A stretch of DNA of 64,000 nucleotides, from positions 62,001 to 126,000 of the forward strand of contig JAUIIA010000003.1 in the NCBI GenBank assembly GCA_030432025.1. Reading direction: 5' to 3'. Under the pieces are notes generated by a model. It did no database searches, was not told the origin of the DNA, and saw only the letters and a list, made by a program, of their open reading frames with translations. The position numbers were made by a program, and so were the translations under genes. Position 1 is the stretch's first letter. Each line of letters starts with the position of its first letter. This DNA comes from Alphaproteobacteria bacterium (GTDB lineage Bacteria; Pseudomonadota; Alphaproteobacteria; Micavibrionales; Micavibrionaceae). Positions 26,938-59,622 of the stretch are shown here, in pieces.

Positions 26938-26992
26938 ATGGGAATTACGGACAAACGAAAACGGTTTAGAACCTTTTAATAGAGAGGTGAGC

Positions 26993-29623
26993 ATGGCTAG
27001 TCTCGATACACTTGACGGTAAAATTTTACAGGCTGAAAGCCTTGAAATGCGTACAGGCATTCCTTTGAAAGAAATGCAGGGCATTCGCGCATGGAAAGAT
27101 GAAGAGAGCGGCAAGTTCGGTCTGGAAATCCTGCATAAATATAAAGCCGGACGCTTCGGTAAGAATAAGCCACAATGGCACCGCTTCGCCATGGAGCCTC
27201 GCGAAGGCGGTCCTGCTATCTCGTACGAAAAAGCTCAAGCCGTTGCCAGACATATGGACCCGTTCGTCAGAGATGCTGACTATGAAGCACCCAAAGAAAA
27301 ACGCAGCCGCACAGCCAAGCCAAAGAAACAAAAAGCTGAAAAGCCTGCCCCTAAACAGGCAAAACCGAAGGCTGCTCCAAAGGCAGAAAAACCAGCAAAA
27401 TCAGAAGGCAAATCAATGTTCTCAGGACTAAAACGCTTTTGGCCTAAACAACTTACCCCGGGCTATTGGGCCGCCATCCAAAGAGGTGAAGACCCGAACG
27501 CTAAAGACAAACCTGTGATCAAAACGGGCGCAGAAAAGTCGGGTGAGCGCAAAGAGCCGTATGTCGGCAAACCTGCAGAAACAGATAAAGAAGAAAGCCC
27601 GTTGCCTGAAACAGACGAATTGATCCAAGGCCGCAAGCTGGTTGAAAAGCTGGCCAGAACAGCCAACATCGACCCGAAATTCATTCAAAATGTTGAATTG
27701 GTTCGCGGCGAAGGCAAAACAGGCGAAAACGCACACAAAATCAATTTGCTGATTGGTTCGGTCATGGGCGGTGAACCTGCAATTGAAAGCTTCAGCTTTG
27801 ACGATGTCTTCAAAGAAAAAGCCGATAAAATCAGCGCTGATAAACTGGAACAGGGTATAGCAAACGCAAATGCCTATATTAAGGCACGCGACGGTGCAGA
27901 CGTTGAAACAAAAGCCGATGCAAAAGCTGACGCTAACCCTGCAGAACCGGCCGCTAAAACCGACGCAGAGCCTGAAGCAGAAGCTGAAGAGCCAAAAATT
28001 GAGCCACAGTCAACAGATGCGCCTGATAAGGAAGCGGCAATGGCGGCTATCGCATTACTCTCCGGCTTCCCGAAAAAAGCAGCCGAAGAGCTGGGCATTG
28101 AAGAAGGCCCCGCATGGCGCGATGACAGCGGTACAGGTCACCTGTATTTCCGCGGAATTTTCGCCGCTATCGAACGCATGGAAAATGGCGAAGGCAACCC
28201 GAAAGCCGCTTTGGAAGCTGCTGCCACATCCATTCAAGCAACCAAAAACCCGAAATTCTTCGTAGGTGACGACGCAGCACTGGCAAAAGTCGGTGACATC
28301 GGCGTTAACCTTGCTTTTGCCGAAATCAGAGGCGAGCCATTGGAAAACACATTAAGCCTGGAAGAACTTGAACACCTGACAGCAAACCTGCAGGACTTCA
28401 CAGACCGCATCAATGAACGTGTTGGCACTGACAAGGCCTATCCTGGTCTGGAAAATTTCGCAGCTACTTTGGCTACAGCCAACGCCTATTACCAGCATCA
28501 TGCAAAGAATGTACTGGCGCCTAAATTGGGCGGAGAAACTCCCGAACCTGCCGTCGTCAAACAGCCTGAGGCTGAGCCAAAAGCAGCACCAAAAGCCGCA
28601 GAAACGCCAGCAAAAGACAAGGGCGGTGACCTTCCGTCTTTCCTGAAGCCGGGGGCCAAAACAATGGACGAGCGTGTAGCAGAACACCAAGCTAAAAAAG
28701 CTGCCGCAAAACCGACACGTGAAACGGCACTAATGAAGGCTGCGAATGCCGTATTGCTTAAACAACAAAATATCGACATTGATGATGTCCTCGATGCCGA
28801 CCCAAGCAAGGTATTCGAACAAATCGATGCTCTGGAGCTGTCCGCCAAAGACACACAGTTCGAGTCAGTAGATCAGATCAAAGAACAGTTGAAGCTCCTG
28901 AAAGAGCACCGCGTGGCTGTACGCGCAAGACACGCCTTCAGCAACGACAACACAGCGGCTATCGAAGAAAGAACCCAAAAGGAAGCACCTTTCTACGAAG
29001 CTTTGGACAAAATCTACGGCAAAATCGATCAGATCGATCCCGAAAATGTCGCATCCGTATCCATTCCGAATGGTCTGGACGGCAAAAATCACTGCATCAT
29101 GATCCAGTATAAAAATGATGAGACAGCAGGCCCGAAAAAGATCACTGTTCCATACGCAATGAGCGGAGACGTACATGCAGGCCAGAAGACACTGGACCTC
29201 GCACTGATGAGACTACGTGAAAAAACAGGCCAGATGGTCGAACACGAAGAAATCTGCCATGCTTCACAAGACTTCATTAAGGCACACGCCAAAGAACACG
29301 GTTCAGTGCAGGAAGAATATAAAATCGACGTTGATAACGTTGATGATCTAGGTCTGATCCACTTCGGTGACATCATGATCGGACATGCAAAGCCTGCAGG
29401 TATCAAAAACGAGGATCTGCTCGGCGTGAACTTTGACGAAGAAAACAGTGCACTCGTATTTGTCCAGTTTGACGGTTCAGAGCACAAAGTCACTGTAAAC
29501 CCCGATAAGTCTATCTTCCGCAGTGGTGAAGATATGGCCGCCGCGATCAACAGATCACTTGAGAATGAGCGCTACATGAAGGCTGCTGCTGTTCAGCATA
29601 CGCCGGGTGCGGAAGCCGCTTAA
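26993..29623 (+). CDS. Large low-complexity orphan protein inserted between hslV and hslU
   Basis: 876 residues from ATG 26993, preceded by AGAGAGG; a GTG two codons earlier is open. Unrecognised. Residues 1-85 look folded. Lys/Ala/Pro-rich linkers lie at about 90-140, 300-345 (Ala/Glu/Pro repeats) and 520-560, separating helical domains. Residues 640-870 look folded again. It has no signal peptide or membrane segment, so it is probably cytoplasmic or exported by a non-Sec route. It has its own CtrA-overlapped promoter. A strong hairpin follows the stop, just before hslU. Scaffold-like or disordered design is inference from composition. Confidence 0.8.
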   Translation: MASLDTLDGKILQAESLEMRTGIPLKEMQGIRAWKDEESGKFGLEILHKYKAGRFGKNKPQWHRFAMEPREGGPAISYEKAQAVARHMDPFVRDADYEAPKEKRSRTAKPKKQKAEKPAPKQAKPKAAPKAEKPAKSEGKSMFSGLKRFWPKQLTPGYWAAIQRGEDPNAKDKPVIKTGAEKSGERKEPYVGKPAETDKEESPLPETDELIQGRKLVEKLARTANIDPKFIQNVELVRGEGKTGENAHKINLLIGSVMGGEPAIESFSFDDVFKEKADKISADKLEQGIANANAYIKARDGADVETKADAKADANPAEPAAKTDAEPEAEAEEPKIEPQSTDAPDKEAAMAAIALLSGFPKKAAEELGIEEGPAWRDDSGTGHLYFRGIFAAIERMENGEGNPKAALEAAATSIQATKNPKFFVGDDAALAKVGDIGVNLAFAEIRGEPLENTLSLEELEHLTANLQDFTDRINERVGTDKAYPGLENFAATLATANAYYQHHAKNVLAPKLGGETPEPAVVKQPEAEPKAAPKAAETPAKDKGGDLPSFLKPGAKTMDERVAEHQAKKAAAKPTRETALMKAANAVLLKQQNIDIDDVLDADPSKVFEQIDALELSAKDTQFESVDQIKEQLKLLKEHRVAVRARHAFSNDNTAAIEERTQKEAPFYEALDKIYGKIDQIDPENVASVSIPNGLDGKNHCIMIQYKNDETAGPKKITVPYAMSGDVHAGQKTLDLALMRLREKTGQMVEHEEICHASQDFIKAHAKEHGSVQEEYKIDVDNVDDLGLIHFGDIMIGHAKPAGIKNEDLLGVNFDEENSALVFVQFDGSEHKVTVNPDKSIFRSGEDMAAAINRSLENERYMKAAAVQHTPGAEAA

Positions 29624-29696: not shown

Positions 29697-31043
29697 ATGG
29701 CTTTAAAATCTGAAACATCCGATACCTACGAAATCCCTTCTTTCTCACCACGCGAAATCGTGAGCGAGCTTGACCGCTTTATCATCGGTCAAAAAGACGC
29801 CAAAAAGGCCGTCGCCGTCGCACTCCGTAACCGCTGGCGCAGGCAGCAGCTGGACCGCGAGCTACAGGAAGAAGTTTACCCCAAGAACATCCTGATGATT
29901 GGCCCCACGGGTGTCGGTAAAACCGAAATCGCCCGCCGTCTGGCTAAACTGGCGCAAGCCCCGTTCGTGAAGGTCGAAGCAACCAAATTTACTGAAGTCG
30001 GCTATGTCGGTAAGGATGTGGAGTCCATCATCCGTGATTTGACCGAAAACGCCATTCACATGACCCGTGACGCCATGCGCCGCACCGTCATGGCCCAGGC
30101 CGAGATATATGCAGAGGAACGCGTCCTCGATGCGCTGGTTGGTGAAACCGCAGGCGAAGGCACACGTAAGAACTTCCGCGATAAACTACGCTCCGGTGAG
30201 CTAAACGACCGCGAAATCGAAGTGGAGGTCGTCGACAATTCCAACCCAATGGGTGGCATGATGGATATTCCCGGCATGCCCGGCACTTCCATGTCGATGA
30301 TCAATATGAACGATCTATTCGGCAAGGCATTCGGCGACCGCACCAAGAAGAAGAAAATGCGCGTCGATGAGAGCTACGACATCCTTATGCGCGACGAAGC
30401 CGATAAGCTTCTCGATGAGGAGAAAGTGGTTGAACAAGCCCTGCACCTTGTTGAGCAAAACGGCATTGTCTTCCTCGACGAAATAGACAAAATTGCAGCC
30501 CGTCAGGACGTACGCGGCGGCGATGTATCGCGTGAAGGCGTACAGCGTGACCTGTTGCCGCTCATCGAAGGCACAACGGTTACAACCAAGCACGGCCCGG
30601 TTAAAACCGATCATATTCTGTTTATCGCCAGTGGCGCGTTCCATTACGCCAAGCCGTCAGACTTGCTGGCCGAACTGCAAGGACGCCTACCGATTCGTGT
30701 AGAGCTGCGCGCGCTCACCGAAGAAGACTTCAAGAAAATCCTTAAAGACACCGAAGCCAGCTTGATCAAACAATATGTCGCCCTGATCGGTACGGAAAAA
30801 GTCACTTTGGAATTCGAGGATGAGGCGATCGATGAAATCTCGCGCCTGTCCTTCGAGGTCAATGAACAAGTCGAGAATATCGGCGCACGCCGTTTGCATA
30901 CCGTGATGGAGAAATTACTGGAGGAAATCAGCTTTTCAGCCAGTGACCGCGGTGGTGAGACTGTAAAAATTACAGCCGACTATGTCCGTGAAAATGTAGA
31001 AGAGCTTGTGAAGTCGACAGACCTGAGCAAATTCATCCTCTAG
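29697..31043 (+). CDS. hslU: HslU ATPase subunit of the HslVU protease
   Basis: 448 residues, AAA+ unfoldase that feeds HslV. Walker A GPTGVGKT lies at 69-76, Walker [10 protein letters not shown] near 260, and the I domain with the Met-rich segment [14 protein letters not shown] lies between. The pore motif ([11 protein letters not shown]) is intact. The C-terminus FIL docks on HslV. No separate promoter is evident. Its 3' end overlaps the convergent gene at 31040 by 4 bases. Confidence 0.97.
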
Positions 31044-32083
31044 TCATTGCCGTAATCATCATACCATGTTGACGGATCATCGGGGTCGTAGTCATCTTCG
31101 GCCGCCTTGGCATTCAGGCTGTTGATGTAATCAGCCCTATAGACAGGCTCGTCTTCCATACTGGTTTCAAAATCAGCCGTAATCGCCGATACATGGTCCG
31201 CATTGCGAACGGGCACAACCATGTACTTTACGCTATCACCCGGCGGGTCTATGCCCGTCAGTTCAAAAAATTCCTGTCGCTCCAGCATCGGCACATCCAT
31301 CTGCGCATAACCCTGTACCGCAACTTTGTCCCCTTTGGTCAAGGCTTCAGCAGCCTTGTCATCGGAGGTCATGAACAAAACCCTGAAACCCGTAATATCG
31401 CCATTGGCATCATCACCCCCGCGTGTCATACGCGGCACGACGAATGTGTTGCCGGCAAAATTCTCAACGACATGGGCATCTTGCGTATTCGCCGTAATAA
31501 CGCTCGGCATCTTCAAACCCAATTCCTCACGCATTTGCGTGGACGAACCCAGATTGACCCAATCCTCGCCCGCAATCATCTCGGACAGCGGCAAAGCCTT
31601 CTTCTCGGAAATAACGTGGATGCTGTCATAAACAGTCTCAGGATCAGGCATCGTACGGATCATCGCGATCATCGCCGCAGCTTCTCCTGCCGTCTTGACC
31701 GAATAGGTCGCCCTGTATCTTCGCGGATCAATCGGATTAGCATCAGGTTGACTAAGATCAATCACATCATCGCCCATATCCACGCTTGTCATCATACCCT
31801 CGGGCGGACCCTTATGATGCACTAGTGCTACATCACGGTGATTGTCGGAATATTCGCCGCGGCGTGTCCCGTTGTTGAAATTCCAGTTCAAACGTTTCAA
31901 GCCCGGCGTATTCAGGAAGCCCAGCATTGAAAACGCCCGCGAGCGTACGCTGGCTTTTTCATGTCCGAACGGACAGGCATCCTGATGGTCTTTAAGATTT
32001 TTACTGCGAAAATAGCGCCCCTCTTTGTAGGAGCCTTGAGACATATAGCTGCCGTCTTCTTCAGTTTTCGAGCCGGCGGCCAA
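31040..32083 (-). CDS. Zinc-ribbon orphan, main part, downstream of an in-frame TGA
   Basis: The frame is open from TTG 32083; the first ATG is at 32044 ([10 protein letters not shown]). It is in the same frame as the 60-codon ORF at 32105-32287, separated only by TGA plus seven codons reading PCCHTKL. The N-terminal part has [15 protein letters not shown], a Cys/His pattern also present in the neighbour at 32394-33443 (LDHLDDCDFAHRHE). The rest (about 100-340) is an acidic mixed alpha/beta region without known family. I think the original gene ran from 32287 to 31040 (about 416 codons). If only this part is made, half of the metal site is lost. Confidence 0.6.
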
Positions 32084-32104
32084 AAGCTTGGTGTGGCAGC
32101 ACGG

Positions 32105-32287
32105 TCAACCAATACGGTCCTTATGCTCATCATCATTGTACTGATCCGGGGTAATACTGTCGCCTGTCGGCTGGCCATGCTCGTCCAGAAGCGGCACACG
32201 CGGAAATTTTAATGAACTTTCGCGGTTCTGCTCGCCATAGGCTTCGGCATTAAAGCCTTCGATGTTGTCATCATCCCTGTCAGACAT
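32105..32287 (-). CDS. N-terminal fragment of the interrupted zinc-ribbon orphan
   Basis: 60 codons (MSDRDDDNIEG... to ...DEHKDRIG), acidic and probably disordered. They end at TGA 32105-32107. The next in-frame codons are CCG TGC TGC (Pro-Cys-Cys). In the neighbouring gene the equivalent place reads Tyr-Cys-Pro-Cys-Cys (TGC CCG TGT TGT). The TGA therefore replaces the first Cys of a CPCC motif. Alternatives: a recent nonsense mutation, a sequencing error, or recoding as selenocysteine. Confidence 0.5.
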   Translation of the reverse strand: MSDRDDDNIEGFNAEAYGEQNRESSLKFPRVPLLDEHGQPTGDSITPDQYNDDEHKDRIG

Positions 32288-32393
32288 TTTCTAAACCATG
32301 GTTATTGAGGCTATGAATGTACCGCTTTTATGCAATTATGTCAAATTATTTGGCAGTGTGTACGTGTCTCTAAACCCTTTTGAAATATGGGTT

Positions 32394-33443
32394 TTAGAAC
32401 AAATCAGCCTGCGGGTTCGGCTCTTGCCAGCTTGTCACCTGTTCAGGTCTGAAAATGCGGATTTCCGGACGTCCGTCACTGCGCATTCCGGCCAATCCAT
32501 AAGCCAGTATTTTATCACCGCTTCCTTGCCCTTTGGGGCTAAATAGATCCTTGAGATGTTCATAGGATTCCTCGTTCTGTGCCGAAAACATTACAACAGG
32601 TGTCGTCGAAGGATGGCTCGGCATATCGTACCCTTCCCAGAATCTGGGAATACGGTTCGGCAACAACGACGCAACGACGGTTCCCATACCCTGCCCCAAT
32701 TGCTGTCGTGTTTGGCAATAGGTCATCACACCACGGTTACTGTTCAAAAATATATCGTGCAGGCTCTGTGGGCCGTCGGCCGTATGCAGTAACTTTTCGT
32801 CCCACTGCACCTGATCGTGCTTATGCGCGATGATAAACGCGGCCAGCTCGTTAATTGTCCGCAATGGCGGTGGCTTAATGATTGCGGACCTTTTCGAAAC
32901 CTGCCCGTTATCTTCGGGTCCGAATTCGGCCGCATCGTGACTATAACTGACAATGCGTCGCGGCGGCATGGTAATAACCGCAGCTGTGGGAATAGAAATC
33001 GTGTGTAACCGTTGGTCCAGCTCGGCACGACGCTCCGCTATCTCCGCGCTGCTAATGCGCGAGCGCGGATCAAAACGCTCATGCCTGTGCGCAAAATCGC
33101 AATCATCCAGATGATCCAGCCCATCATGCCGCTTGGTAAAGCTGGCGGGATGGTGCATCACCTCTTCTTCACCCTGAAAGTTGATATGCGGACGATCGAA
33201 AGAACGTACACCCTTATGACGGGACAAATGTCCCTTATCCAGACAACACGGGCAGTACAGCCTGTGCGCGCCCTTAATCCATTCAGGCTTATCACGCCCA
33301 TCCCGTGCCTGTATGTATGGCTGCGCTCTGATTTTGCTCAAGGCTGCGCGGTCTACCTCACTGGATAGATCGGGGTCACGATCCACACCGTCAGGCGGAA
33401 TGAATAATACGGCTTCAGCTATAGGTACATTGACGACGCGCAT
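32394..33443 (-). CDS. Zinc-ribbon orphan (CoiA-like Cys/His pattern)
   Basis: 349 residues, unrecognised as a whole. Residues about 62-130 contain LYCPCCLDKGHLSRHKG followed by HHPASFTKRH and LDHLDDCDFAHRHE. This spacing of CPxC and F-A-H motifs recalls the N-terminal zinc finger of CoiA-type proteins. The region after about 150 is mixed alpha/beta with no nuclease motif that I can point to. It is followed on the same strand by the TGA-interrupted gene, which shares the Cys/His pattern, so the two may be old duplicates. No signal peptide is seen. Confidence 0.7.
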   Translation of the reverse strand: MRVVNVPIAEAVLFIPPDGVDRDPDLSSEVDRAALSKIRAQPYIQARDGRDKPEWIKGAHRLYCPCCLDKGHLSRHKGVRSFDRPHINFQGEEEVMHHPASFTKRHDGLDHLDDCDFAHRHERFDPRSRISSAEIAERRAELDQRLHTISIPTAAVITMPPRRIVSYSHDAAEFGPEDNGQVSKRSAIIKPPPLRTINELAAFIIAHKHDQVQWDEKLLHTADGPQSLHDIFLNSNRGVMTYCQTRQQLGQGMGTVVASLLPNRIPRFWEGYDMPSHPSTTPVVMFSAQNEESYEHLKDLFSPKGQGSGDKILAYGLAGMRSDGRPEIRIFRPEQVTSWQEPNPQADLF

Positions 33444-57215: not shown

Positions 57216-58544
57216 TTATTTACCGATACAAAAATCATTGAAAATAACGTCGAGCAAATCCTCGACATTCACCTTGCCTGTGATTTTACCCAGCGATCGC
57301 ATCGCCAGTCGCACATCTTCGGCCATCAATTCGGGCAAGGTCGCCTCATGGCTTTGACGCAAACAATCCAACGCATCCTGCAAATGCGCCCGATGACGCT
57401 GACGCGTTAACGACGGTGTTTCACGTGAACCGATGAATTGTTTGATCTTCTCCAATACCGTATCCAGCAAGATCTGGATCCCGTCGCCCTTATCGGCGGA
57501 AATCATAATCGAGGCATCAATCTGTGATCGTGCGCCGTCCATATCCATTTTATTGGTCACCAGAATCGCACGCCCATCAATAAGGTTGAGCGTATGCGGA
57601 TCGGGAATTTCAGCCGTGCCGTCAAAAATCAGCAAGGTGATATCGGCATCTTCAGCGCGTTGTAAGGCGCGCTTTATACCCTCGCCCTCAATCGCATCTT
57701 GCCCCTGACTACCGATCTGATCAGGGCGAAGTCCGGCTGTATCCGCCAGAATAACCGGGTATCCGCCGATATCCAGATGCGCTTCAATAACATCGCGAGT
57801 TGTTCCGGCCGTCTCCGATGTAATTGCGACATCTCTTTGCACCAGCGCATTCACCAAAGATGATTTACCCGCATTCGGTGCACCGATAACGGCAACCTGA
57901 ATACCGTCACGCAATCGCTCACCGCGACGGTTGTCACTCAGATGCTCATCAATCTCGGCTTCCAGCTTTTTGATCGTGTCTGTAACTTCCGGCGCAATAC
58001 CTTCCGGCAAATCCTCATCGGGAAATTCAATATCCGCCTCCAGATGCGCCAATGTCTTTTTCAGCTCCTCAGCCCAGCGCGCATAAAGTGCGGACAAAGC
58101 GCCACCCAGCTGTTGCAAAGCTTGCTGCTTTTGCATCTCGGTTTGCGCATCAATCAAATCGGCAACCGCCTCGGCCTCGGTCAAATCCAGCTTTCCGTTC
58201 TCGAAAGCGCGGCGCGTAAATTCGCCTGGCTCCGCCATGCGGTGGTTTTCCTGTGCCGTTAAAGCCGCCAGAACGGAATCGATAACCGCCCGCCCACCAT
58301 GGACATGATACTCGACGACATCCTCACCCGTATAGCTTGCTGGCGCCTTAAAAGGGAGTATAACTGATTGATCTAAAACATTATTTTTATATTTTAGCGC
58401 CGTATAATGCGCGGCGCGAGGCTTTATATAACCTAAATCCGAGAACACCTTGAGACTATCCCAGCTTTGCGGGCCGGACACGCGAATAACCGCGACTCCT
58501 GCACGGCCTGCTCCGCTCGCCAATGCAAAAATCGTATCGCTCAT
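57216..58544 (-). CDS. mnmE: tRNA modification GTPase MnmE
   Basis: 442 residues from ATG 58544 (MSDTIFALASG...); 32 codons of upstream frame belong to the preceding gene. N-terminal formyl-THF-binding domain with RAGVAVIRVSG, G1 GAPNAGKSSLVN, G3 DTAGLR, G4 TNKMD, and the C-terminal FCIGK with the essential CxGK cysteine. Partner of MnmG. The start overlaps the stop of the DUF6489 gene (TAATG). A parS-like site lies at 57417-57432. Confidence 0.97.
   Translation of the reverse strand: MSDTIFALASGAGRAGVAVIRVSGPQSWDSLKVFSDLGYIKPRAAHYTALKYKNNVLDQSVILPFKAPASYTGEDVVEYHVHGGRAVIDSVLAALTAQENHRMAEPGEFTRRAFENGKLDLTEAEAVADLIDAQTEMQKQQALQQLGGALSALYARWAEELKKTLAHLEADIEFPDEDLPEGIAPEVTDTIKKLEAEIDEHLSDNRRGERLRDGIQVAVIGAPNAGKSSLVNALVQRDVAITSETAGTTRDVIEAHLDIGGYPVILADTAGLRPDQIGSQGQDAIEGEGIKRALQRAEDADITLLIFDGTAEIPDPHTLNLIDGRAILVTNKMDMDGARSQIDASIMISADKGDGIQILLDTVLEKIKQFIGSRETPSLTRQRHRAHLQDALDCLRQSHEATLPELMAEDVRLAMRSLGKITGKVNVEDLLDVIFNDFCIGK
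57417..57432. promoter_or_regulatory. parS-like site 5 (inside mnmE)
   Basis: TGTTTCACGTGAACCG, 14 of 16 consensus positions; one arm is degraded. Confidence 0.7.
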
Positions 58545-58798
58545 TACTTCTTGGACGTTGTCGTGCCTGTATGCATGTTCATATTTTCCCAGAACATCTT
58601 TTGCAACTCGGCCATGTTCTGTAACGCGATCGGCATCCATGTCTTAACCATGGTTTCAGGGTCCATCGCTTTCACGTTTTCCTGCATCTTCTTCTCGATC
58701 TCGTCCATCATGCGTTCCTGCATGGGTTGTACGTCAGGCAGGCCAAAGAAACTGCGCGCTTCTTCCGGTGTGCATTCGATATCAAAAGTAACTTTCAT
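58544..58798 (-). CDS. DUF6489 family protein
   Basis: 84 residues from ATG 58798 (MKVTFDIECTPEEARSFFGLPDV...). That opening, followed by QPMQERMMDEIEKKMQ, matches small alphaproteobacterial DUF6489 proteins encoded just before mnmE. The rest is a Met-rich amphipathic helix (MVKTWMPIALQNMAELQKMFWENM), a pattern also seen in phasin-like proteins. The function is unknown. The frame is open 41 codons upstream, but that part overlaps the divergent gene's promoter region. Confidence 0.85.
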   Translation of the reverse strand: MKVTFDIECTPEEARSFFGLPDVQPMQERMMDEIEKKMQENVKAMDPETMVKTWMPIALQNMAELQKMFWENMNMHTGTTTSKK

Positions 58799-58890
58799 GG
58801 GGTAATTATCTCCCGCCTTTTCAATAAAGCTCATATGTGTTTGTATATTTTCAGACACACTTATAGCCCGTATTGCCCGAGGAGAAAACC

Positions 58891-59622
58891 ATGCCTGACT
58901 TCCAAGCACAAATTCCTGCACATGATGGTGACGATTTCGGCGTCTATATCGCCCGCCCGAAAACTACGCCCGCGCCTGCTGTTATTGTTATTCAGGAGAT
59001 TTTCGGCGTAAATCAGGAACTGCGCGCAAAATGTGATGCGCTGGCCGAGCTGGGCTATGTGGCTATTGCACCCGACCTGTTCTGGCGCATTGCTGAAAAA
59101 GGTTTAGAGCTAAACCCCGAAAATGAAGATGAACTGCAAAGAGCTTTTGATCTCTACGGAGAGTTTGATGCTGAAAAAGGTATCAAGGACCTCAAATCAA
59201 CCCTCGCATTCGCCCGTGACCATGAAGATGTCATCAGTGACAGCGTCGGCTGCGTCGGGTTTTGCCTTGGCGGATTTCTGGCCTTCGCCATGGCTGTCGA
59301 AAGTGATGTTGATGCCGCCGTCAGCTATTACGGCGTAAGCATCCCGTCCATGCTCGATAAAAAAGATAAAATTACAAAACCGCTGCTCATGCATATCGCG
59401 GAAAAAGACCAGTTCGTCTCCGCGGAAGAACAAACACAAATGCAGGATGCGCTGGGCGATCATGCGCAAGTCACTATGTACACCTACGAAGGCGAAGATC
59501 ACGCTTTCGCCCGCTTCATCTCGCTTGATGCCTCGGAAACCGAAGGTGCAGGCGGATTGGCAAACAGCCGCACACGCGACTTTTTCGCCAATACCCTCAA
59601 ACCCAAAGCAGAAGCGGCGTAA
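58891..59622 (+). CDS. Dienelactone hydrolase family protein
   Basis: 243 residues from ATG 58891, with GAGGAGAAAACC before it. Alpha/beta hydrolase: VIVIQEIFGVNQELRAKCDALAELGYVAIAPDLFWR at about 31-66, nucleophile Cys in GCVGFCLGGFLAFA (about 121), then the Asp and His in LMHIAEKDQFV and YEGEDHAF. Carboxymethylenebutenolidase-type. No other aromatic-degradation genes are nearby, so the native substrate is unclear. Confidence 0.94.
   Translation: MPDFQAQIPAHDGDDFGVYIARPKTTPAPAVIVIQEIFGVNQELRAKCDALAELGYVAIAPDLFWRIAEKGLELNPENEDELQRAFDLYGEFDAEKGIKDLKSTLAFARDHEDVISDSVGCVGFCLGGFLAFAMAVESDVDAAVSYYGVSIPSMLDKKDKITKPLLMHIAEKDQFVSAEEQTQMQDALGDHAQVTMYTYEGEDHAFARFISLDASETEGAGGLANSRTRDFFANTLKPKAEAA

Follow-up and report, generated by a model that had tools for sequence, protein, structure and literature searches.

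We have analysed a 64,000-nucleotide stretch of an alphaproteobacterial genome, referred to here as the window, in which a minus-strand frame, designated gene A, is interrupted by a TGA codon and lies next to an intact minus-strand gene, gene B. The gene A frame runs from an ATG at 32287 to a TAG at 31040-31042 with a single internal stop, and it contains neither a second stop nor a frameshift. The features of the locus are as follows.

31040..32287, minus strand: gene A, a 416-codon frame consisting of 415 coding positions, the TGA included, followed by TAG
32105..32107, minus strand: the internal TGA, codon 61 of gene A, which is Cys in the homologue
32105..32287, minus strand: upstream fragment of gene A, 60 codons plus the TGA, the expected product of normal termination
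31040..32083, minus strand: downstream fragment of gene A, a 347-codon ORF called from a TTG
32316..32344, minus strand: sigma-70-like promoter, TTGACA-17-TACATT, ahead of gene A, with hexamers and spacing conserved in NORP248
32394..33443, minus strand: gene B, an intact orphan of 349 codons with YCPCC, 68% identical in NORP248

The original prediction described a 60-codon ORF ending at the TGA, a continuation of the frame through CCG TGC TGC into the 347-codon ORF, and a neighbouring gene with an intact CPCC motif, all of which was confirmed from the sequence. The window context of the TGA is R-I-G-stop-P-C-C, and gene B reads CTG TAC TGC CCG TGT TGT (L-Y-C-P-C-C). With the TGA counted as Cys, the N-terminal motif of gene A is CPCC followed by H-x(3)-C-x(3)-H, and the similar His/Cys segment claimed for the two genes was recovered by BLASTP with an E value of 0.009 over 72 columns at 28% identity (TGA as C). 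A second weak segment of similarity, collinear with the first, lies towards the C-termini, and a profile comparison of A with B returned a probability of 25% for the C-terminal segment only. Thus, the description of gene A as one of a paired set stands as regards adjacency, the two genes adjoining in both genomes that carry them; paralogy was borne out less firmly and is plausible on these scores. All four sequences, A and B from both genomes, have D-H-x-x-x-C-x-F in common, and CPCC is present in both NORP248 proteins and in window gene B, as it is in window gene A save for the TGA; the last His of the His/Cys segment in the window is Asn in NORP248 gene B. Our guess, from these motifs, is that the CPCC...H...C module of gene A may be a metal-binding site, probably for zinc.

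Comparison of genes A and B with Pfam, NCBIfam, PHROGs, PADLOC and PDB sequences returned nothing over cut-off, the best E values (0.13 to 0.66) being at chance level, and structure prediction from two-row alignments gave poor models (mean pLDDT 38.4 and 32.8). When the read-through gene A protein was searched in 57 genomes, comprising the window's own genome and relatives from its genus, family and order, two were matched, the own genome and one other of the same genus (G004), and a two-row gene A profile matched the same two among 142 genomes of the order. A scan of the genome collection with gene A returned one locus (L022), on contig JAESRE010000016.1 of the Alphaproteobacteria MAG NORP248; G004 and this locus were taken as one record, their translated proteins being the same. 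Searches of viral contigs, plasmids and phages gave no relatives of gene A, and viral contigs gave none of gene B. Gene B had a weak third match (E 9.3e-4, G114); it contains two stops among frames that appear unrelated, and was taken as chance. We regard gene A as a genuine chromosomal gene whose family, a nameless orphan one, is represented in 2 of the 142 genomes searched in the order.

The homologue in NORP248, a MAG of the same genus, is 65% identical to gene A and runs for 398 residues free of stops; at the TGA position it reads H-I-G-C-P-C-C, its Cys aligned with codon 61. It had been proposed that the TGA sits where a metal-binding Cys is expected; the sole homologue found does carry Cys there, the role as a ligand being putative. 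Homologues starting downstream of the TGA were not seen, the NORP248 protein being unbroken across this position. hslU, gene A, gene B and the Smr gene occur in NORP248 in the same order as in the window, such that an intact gene A orthologue occupies the same genomic place in a relative. If codon 61 is counted as Cys, 126 single-base changes can create a stop in the gene A frame and four of these (3.2%) fall in C61, C63, C64 and C105; the TGA landing on a putative ligand Cys is a mild coincidence of roughly 3%.

Constraint on gene A was similar on both sides of the stop. With respect to NORP248, pN/pS was 0.281 for codons 1-60 and 0.337 from codon 62 to the end, the latter comprising 0.285 (codons 62-130), 0.518 (131-200) and 0.312 (the rest), values which come from one homologue pair and are insensitive to a recent end of selection in the window lineage. 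The corresponding values were 0.314 for gene B, 0.393 for the Smr gene, 0.295 for g34112, 0.350 for the OmpR-like gene, 0.254 for g35492 and 0.081 for hslU. Synonymous sites are near saturation (pS 0.64-0.78 for whole genes), and the ratios are therefore long-time averages, indicating that both gene A halves were similarly selected for most of that time. The promoter scan detected 5 promoter-like sites compared with 2.9 (sd 1.5) in shuffles, and it is therefore conservation that makes the gene A promoter credible. The promoter is followed by a 21-base block (window 32293-32313) that is identical in NORP248 and contains the palindrome AACCATGGTT, and which could be an operator or leader. Combined, a homologue open across the TGA with Cys in its place, similar constraint on both sides and a conserved promoter indicate that the gene A halves were one gene.

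Whether the pieces have since become separate genes, a 60-residue and a 347-residue (or shorter) product translated separately by termination and reinitiation, bears on the same region. An in-frame TTG lies 8 codons past the TGA, and its Shine-Dalgarno-like match extends to at most three bases; the ATGs of genes A and B have matches that are no better (3 bases each), so that the weakness of the TTG in this respect does not count against such a fission. In the NORP248 homologue this TTG is ATT, and a TTG occurs one codon earlier. However, TTG is rarely used as a start, the ATG at gene A codon 82 is Lys in the homologue, and NORP248 makes one chain. The split also passes through the conserved CPCC motif, and thus neither piece would hold the whole motif. 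We give fission a very small probability, and interruption of a formerly single gene is the preferred reading of the locus.

Selenocysteine recoding had been named as a less likely source of the TGA, and this ranking was sustained when the genome was examined for the machinery. The SelA profile had no match in the genome. Seven matches to the SelB profile were obtained, the best at 193 bits and none reaching the cut-off of 242; NCBIfam identifies them as EF-Tu, IF-2, TypA, LepA, RF3, EF-G and, at a contig end, a CysN-like frame. The CysN-like and EF-G names are taken from the matched stretch only, where these families score far higher than SelB. Both SelD matches were below cut-off and are ThiL and PurM. 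Among 11 matches to the tRNA-Sec model none exceeded the cut-off, the best (45.8 versus 47 bits) being a tRNA-Ser whose anticodon is TGA. ARAGORN calls the eight highest-scoring as ordinary tRNAs, and the remaining three coincide with genes for tRNA-Arg, tRNA-Lys and tRNA-Arg. The same models, applied to 14 named genomes as a control, were over cut-off in 1 (SelA), 2 (SelB), 2 (SelD) and 5 (tRNA-Sec). Thus selA, selB, selC and selD were not found as such in an assembly estimated to be 99.91% complete.

The claim that no SECIS hairpin follows the TGA was also substantiated, three stretches from or around the TGA folding no better than shuffles (z +0.37, +0.22 and +0.20), a result that is weak if taken alone as bacterial SECIS elements vary. 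No Rfam family was matched in the window at gathering level, and the RNA past the TGA is not unusually structured. The TGA/Cys pair between gene A and its homologue speaks for selenocysteine, though a single homologue is too few to establish a conserved Cys, and U-P-C-C would retain a chalcogen at the presumed ligand position. Gene A resembles in this the bacterial selenoproteins found as Sec/Cys pairs, as described in the available part of PMC1088965, in that a TGA is aligned with a homologue Cys. The method, according to the same part of that source, requires at least two Cys homologues and examines candidates for SECIS elements; gene A differs in having one Cys homologue, on which the UGA/Cys alignment rests, no SECIS-like fold and no Sec machinery found. 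That the TGA encodes selenocysteine is, on this evidence, vanishingly improbable.

Other ways of reading the UGA were assessed from the translation apparatus. RF2 is present in the genome (519 bits versus a cut-off of 370), and a UCA anticodon is absent from its 33 tRNA matches, which comprise 30 loci and three stretches, one of these read by eye. The tRNA-Trp is ordinary, having a CCA anticodon, a 5-bp anticodon stem, A at position 9 and G at position 24. Genome-wide UGA reassignment was rejected, RF2 being present, no UCA anticodon being found and an in-frame stop occurring in 1 of 30 compared genes, and a suppressor tRNA reading the gene A UGA was rejected on the tRNA evidence. The stretch read by eye, a tRNA-like cloverleaf at G000:C17:50647-50720 (L069, positions 348-421) that ARAGORN left uncalled, has a CAT anticodon loop and is probably an initiator tRNA.

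Gene A could still be in use if its UGA is read through at a low level, the ordinary tRNA-Trp probably supplying Trp at a weak stop context. The base following the TGA is C, and UGA-C is reportedly weak in E. coli. In eukaryotic reporters UGA-C is a weaker terminator, as given in the available text of PMC9841425. C is next in 5 of 14 TGA-ended window ORFs of at least 150 codons (antisense ORFs included), however, and the stop context of gene A is therefore not special. The promoter and downstream frame of gene A are intact, which speaks for continued use; against this, the tRNA-Trp has none of the readthrough-promoting features described in the part of PMC13092985 available, and Trp should not substitute for a metal-ligand Cys. 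The systems described there, UGA-to-Trp codes and readthrough by a tRNA-Trp with a 4-bp stem, are alike in having an in-frame UGA but differ from the present genome, in which RF2 is present, no UCA anticodon was found, the tRNA-Trp stem is 5 bp, a single gene is affected and the homologue has Cys, not Trp. Such readthrough is very unlikely. We regard as highly improbable a further reading, in which codon 61 is kept and read usefully in the absence of a Sec system, a near-cognate tRNA that inserts Cys or Trp being one conceivable means. Gene A would then give two products, 60-residue and full-length, constituting a switch on a CPCC metal site; this would be a new case of recoding, and nothing found points that way. 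Termination at an ordinary UGA in a broken gene remains the favoured reading.

The TGA might be absent from the organism altogether and have entered the assembly either as an error in the consensus or as a base from a minority strain. An error of this kind would give the same picture as a real mutation, with the gene A frame otherwise intact, similar constraint on both sides and no second lesion. The assembly is in 19 contigs, and neither Ile-GAT nor Ala-TGC is present among the 33 tRNA matches, an absence suggesting that the assembly lacks rRNA operons, as occurs in short-read or metagenome assemblies. The frequency of stops was compared between genomes. When ORFs of at least 100 codons from NORP248 contig C6 were searched against the window with tblastn, 70 queries gave a match and 31 non-overlapping places were kept, two of them with a stop in the window. 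One of these (58572-58820) is the antisense shadow of a minus-strand ORF (58544-58921) and was dropped, leaving gene A alone as 1 of 30, a comparison that covers window 30126-63978 with one alignment piece per query and would miss lesions outside these pieces. In the reverse comparison of window ORFs with contig C6, 3 of 30 encounter a single NORP248 stop; it always falls in the first 18 columns of the alignment, and in these cases the called ORF probably begins ahead of the true start. A stop in only one of the 30 compared genes indicates that the assembly is not generally error-ridden, and isolated substitution errors are rare in short-read assemblies, which also counts against an error. We consider an assembly artefact unlikely, while allowing it a real chance, and most likely the TGA marks either a gene broken recently in the ordinary way or an error in the sequence.

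Between the readings offered originally, recent nonsense mutation is preferred, as NORP248 is intact with Cys and no Sec machinery was found, and we consider it probable that gene A is a recent nonsense mutation and a very young null allele. A single-base change would have turned the first Cys codon of the CPCC motif into TGA, upon which RF2 would end translation at codon 61; the resulting 60-residue product would lack the presumed metal site together with the rest of the protein, leaving a very young null allele. The absence of further lesions bears on age. Under neutrality since the stop arose, approximately 42 further stops are expected per unit of neutral distance and 0 are seen, with no second stop in the 354 downstream or the 60 upstream codons. 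If the gene has been neutral, this places the event within ∼0.07 substitutions per site (95% bound), and in simulation runs without a further stop made up 6.9% at a distance of 0.07 and 2.3% at 0.1. Gene A is like young pseudogenes and nonsense alleles of bacteria in having one in-frame stop, an intact relative, an intact promoter-like sequence and no second lesion. It differs in that its family is nameless and was found only in two species of one genus, such that the loss of a known function is not apparent. As found, gene A matters little, being one interrupted orphan gene, and it illustrates cleanly why a TGA/Cys pair is not in itself enough to name a selenoprotein.

The surroundings of the pair vary within the genus. 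The Smr gene is present in 6 of 7 genomes of the genus, and in four that have it without the A/B pair (L063-L066) the interval between hslU and Smr holds other reading frames; this interval, window 31040-33443, is a variable slot. Elsewhere in the window, positions 26987-29623 contain an 878-codon ORF that by eye is rich in K, P, A and E and for which Pfam gave no match at E 0.001. In NORP248 the hslU frame passes, at the contig end (L022 8100-8416), into an unrelated N-terminus which by eye resembles acyl-CoA dehydrogenase, similarity to hslU being limited to residues 98-402 of that ORF, and this contig end is probably chimeric.
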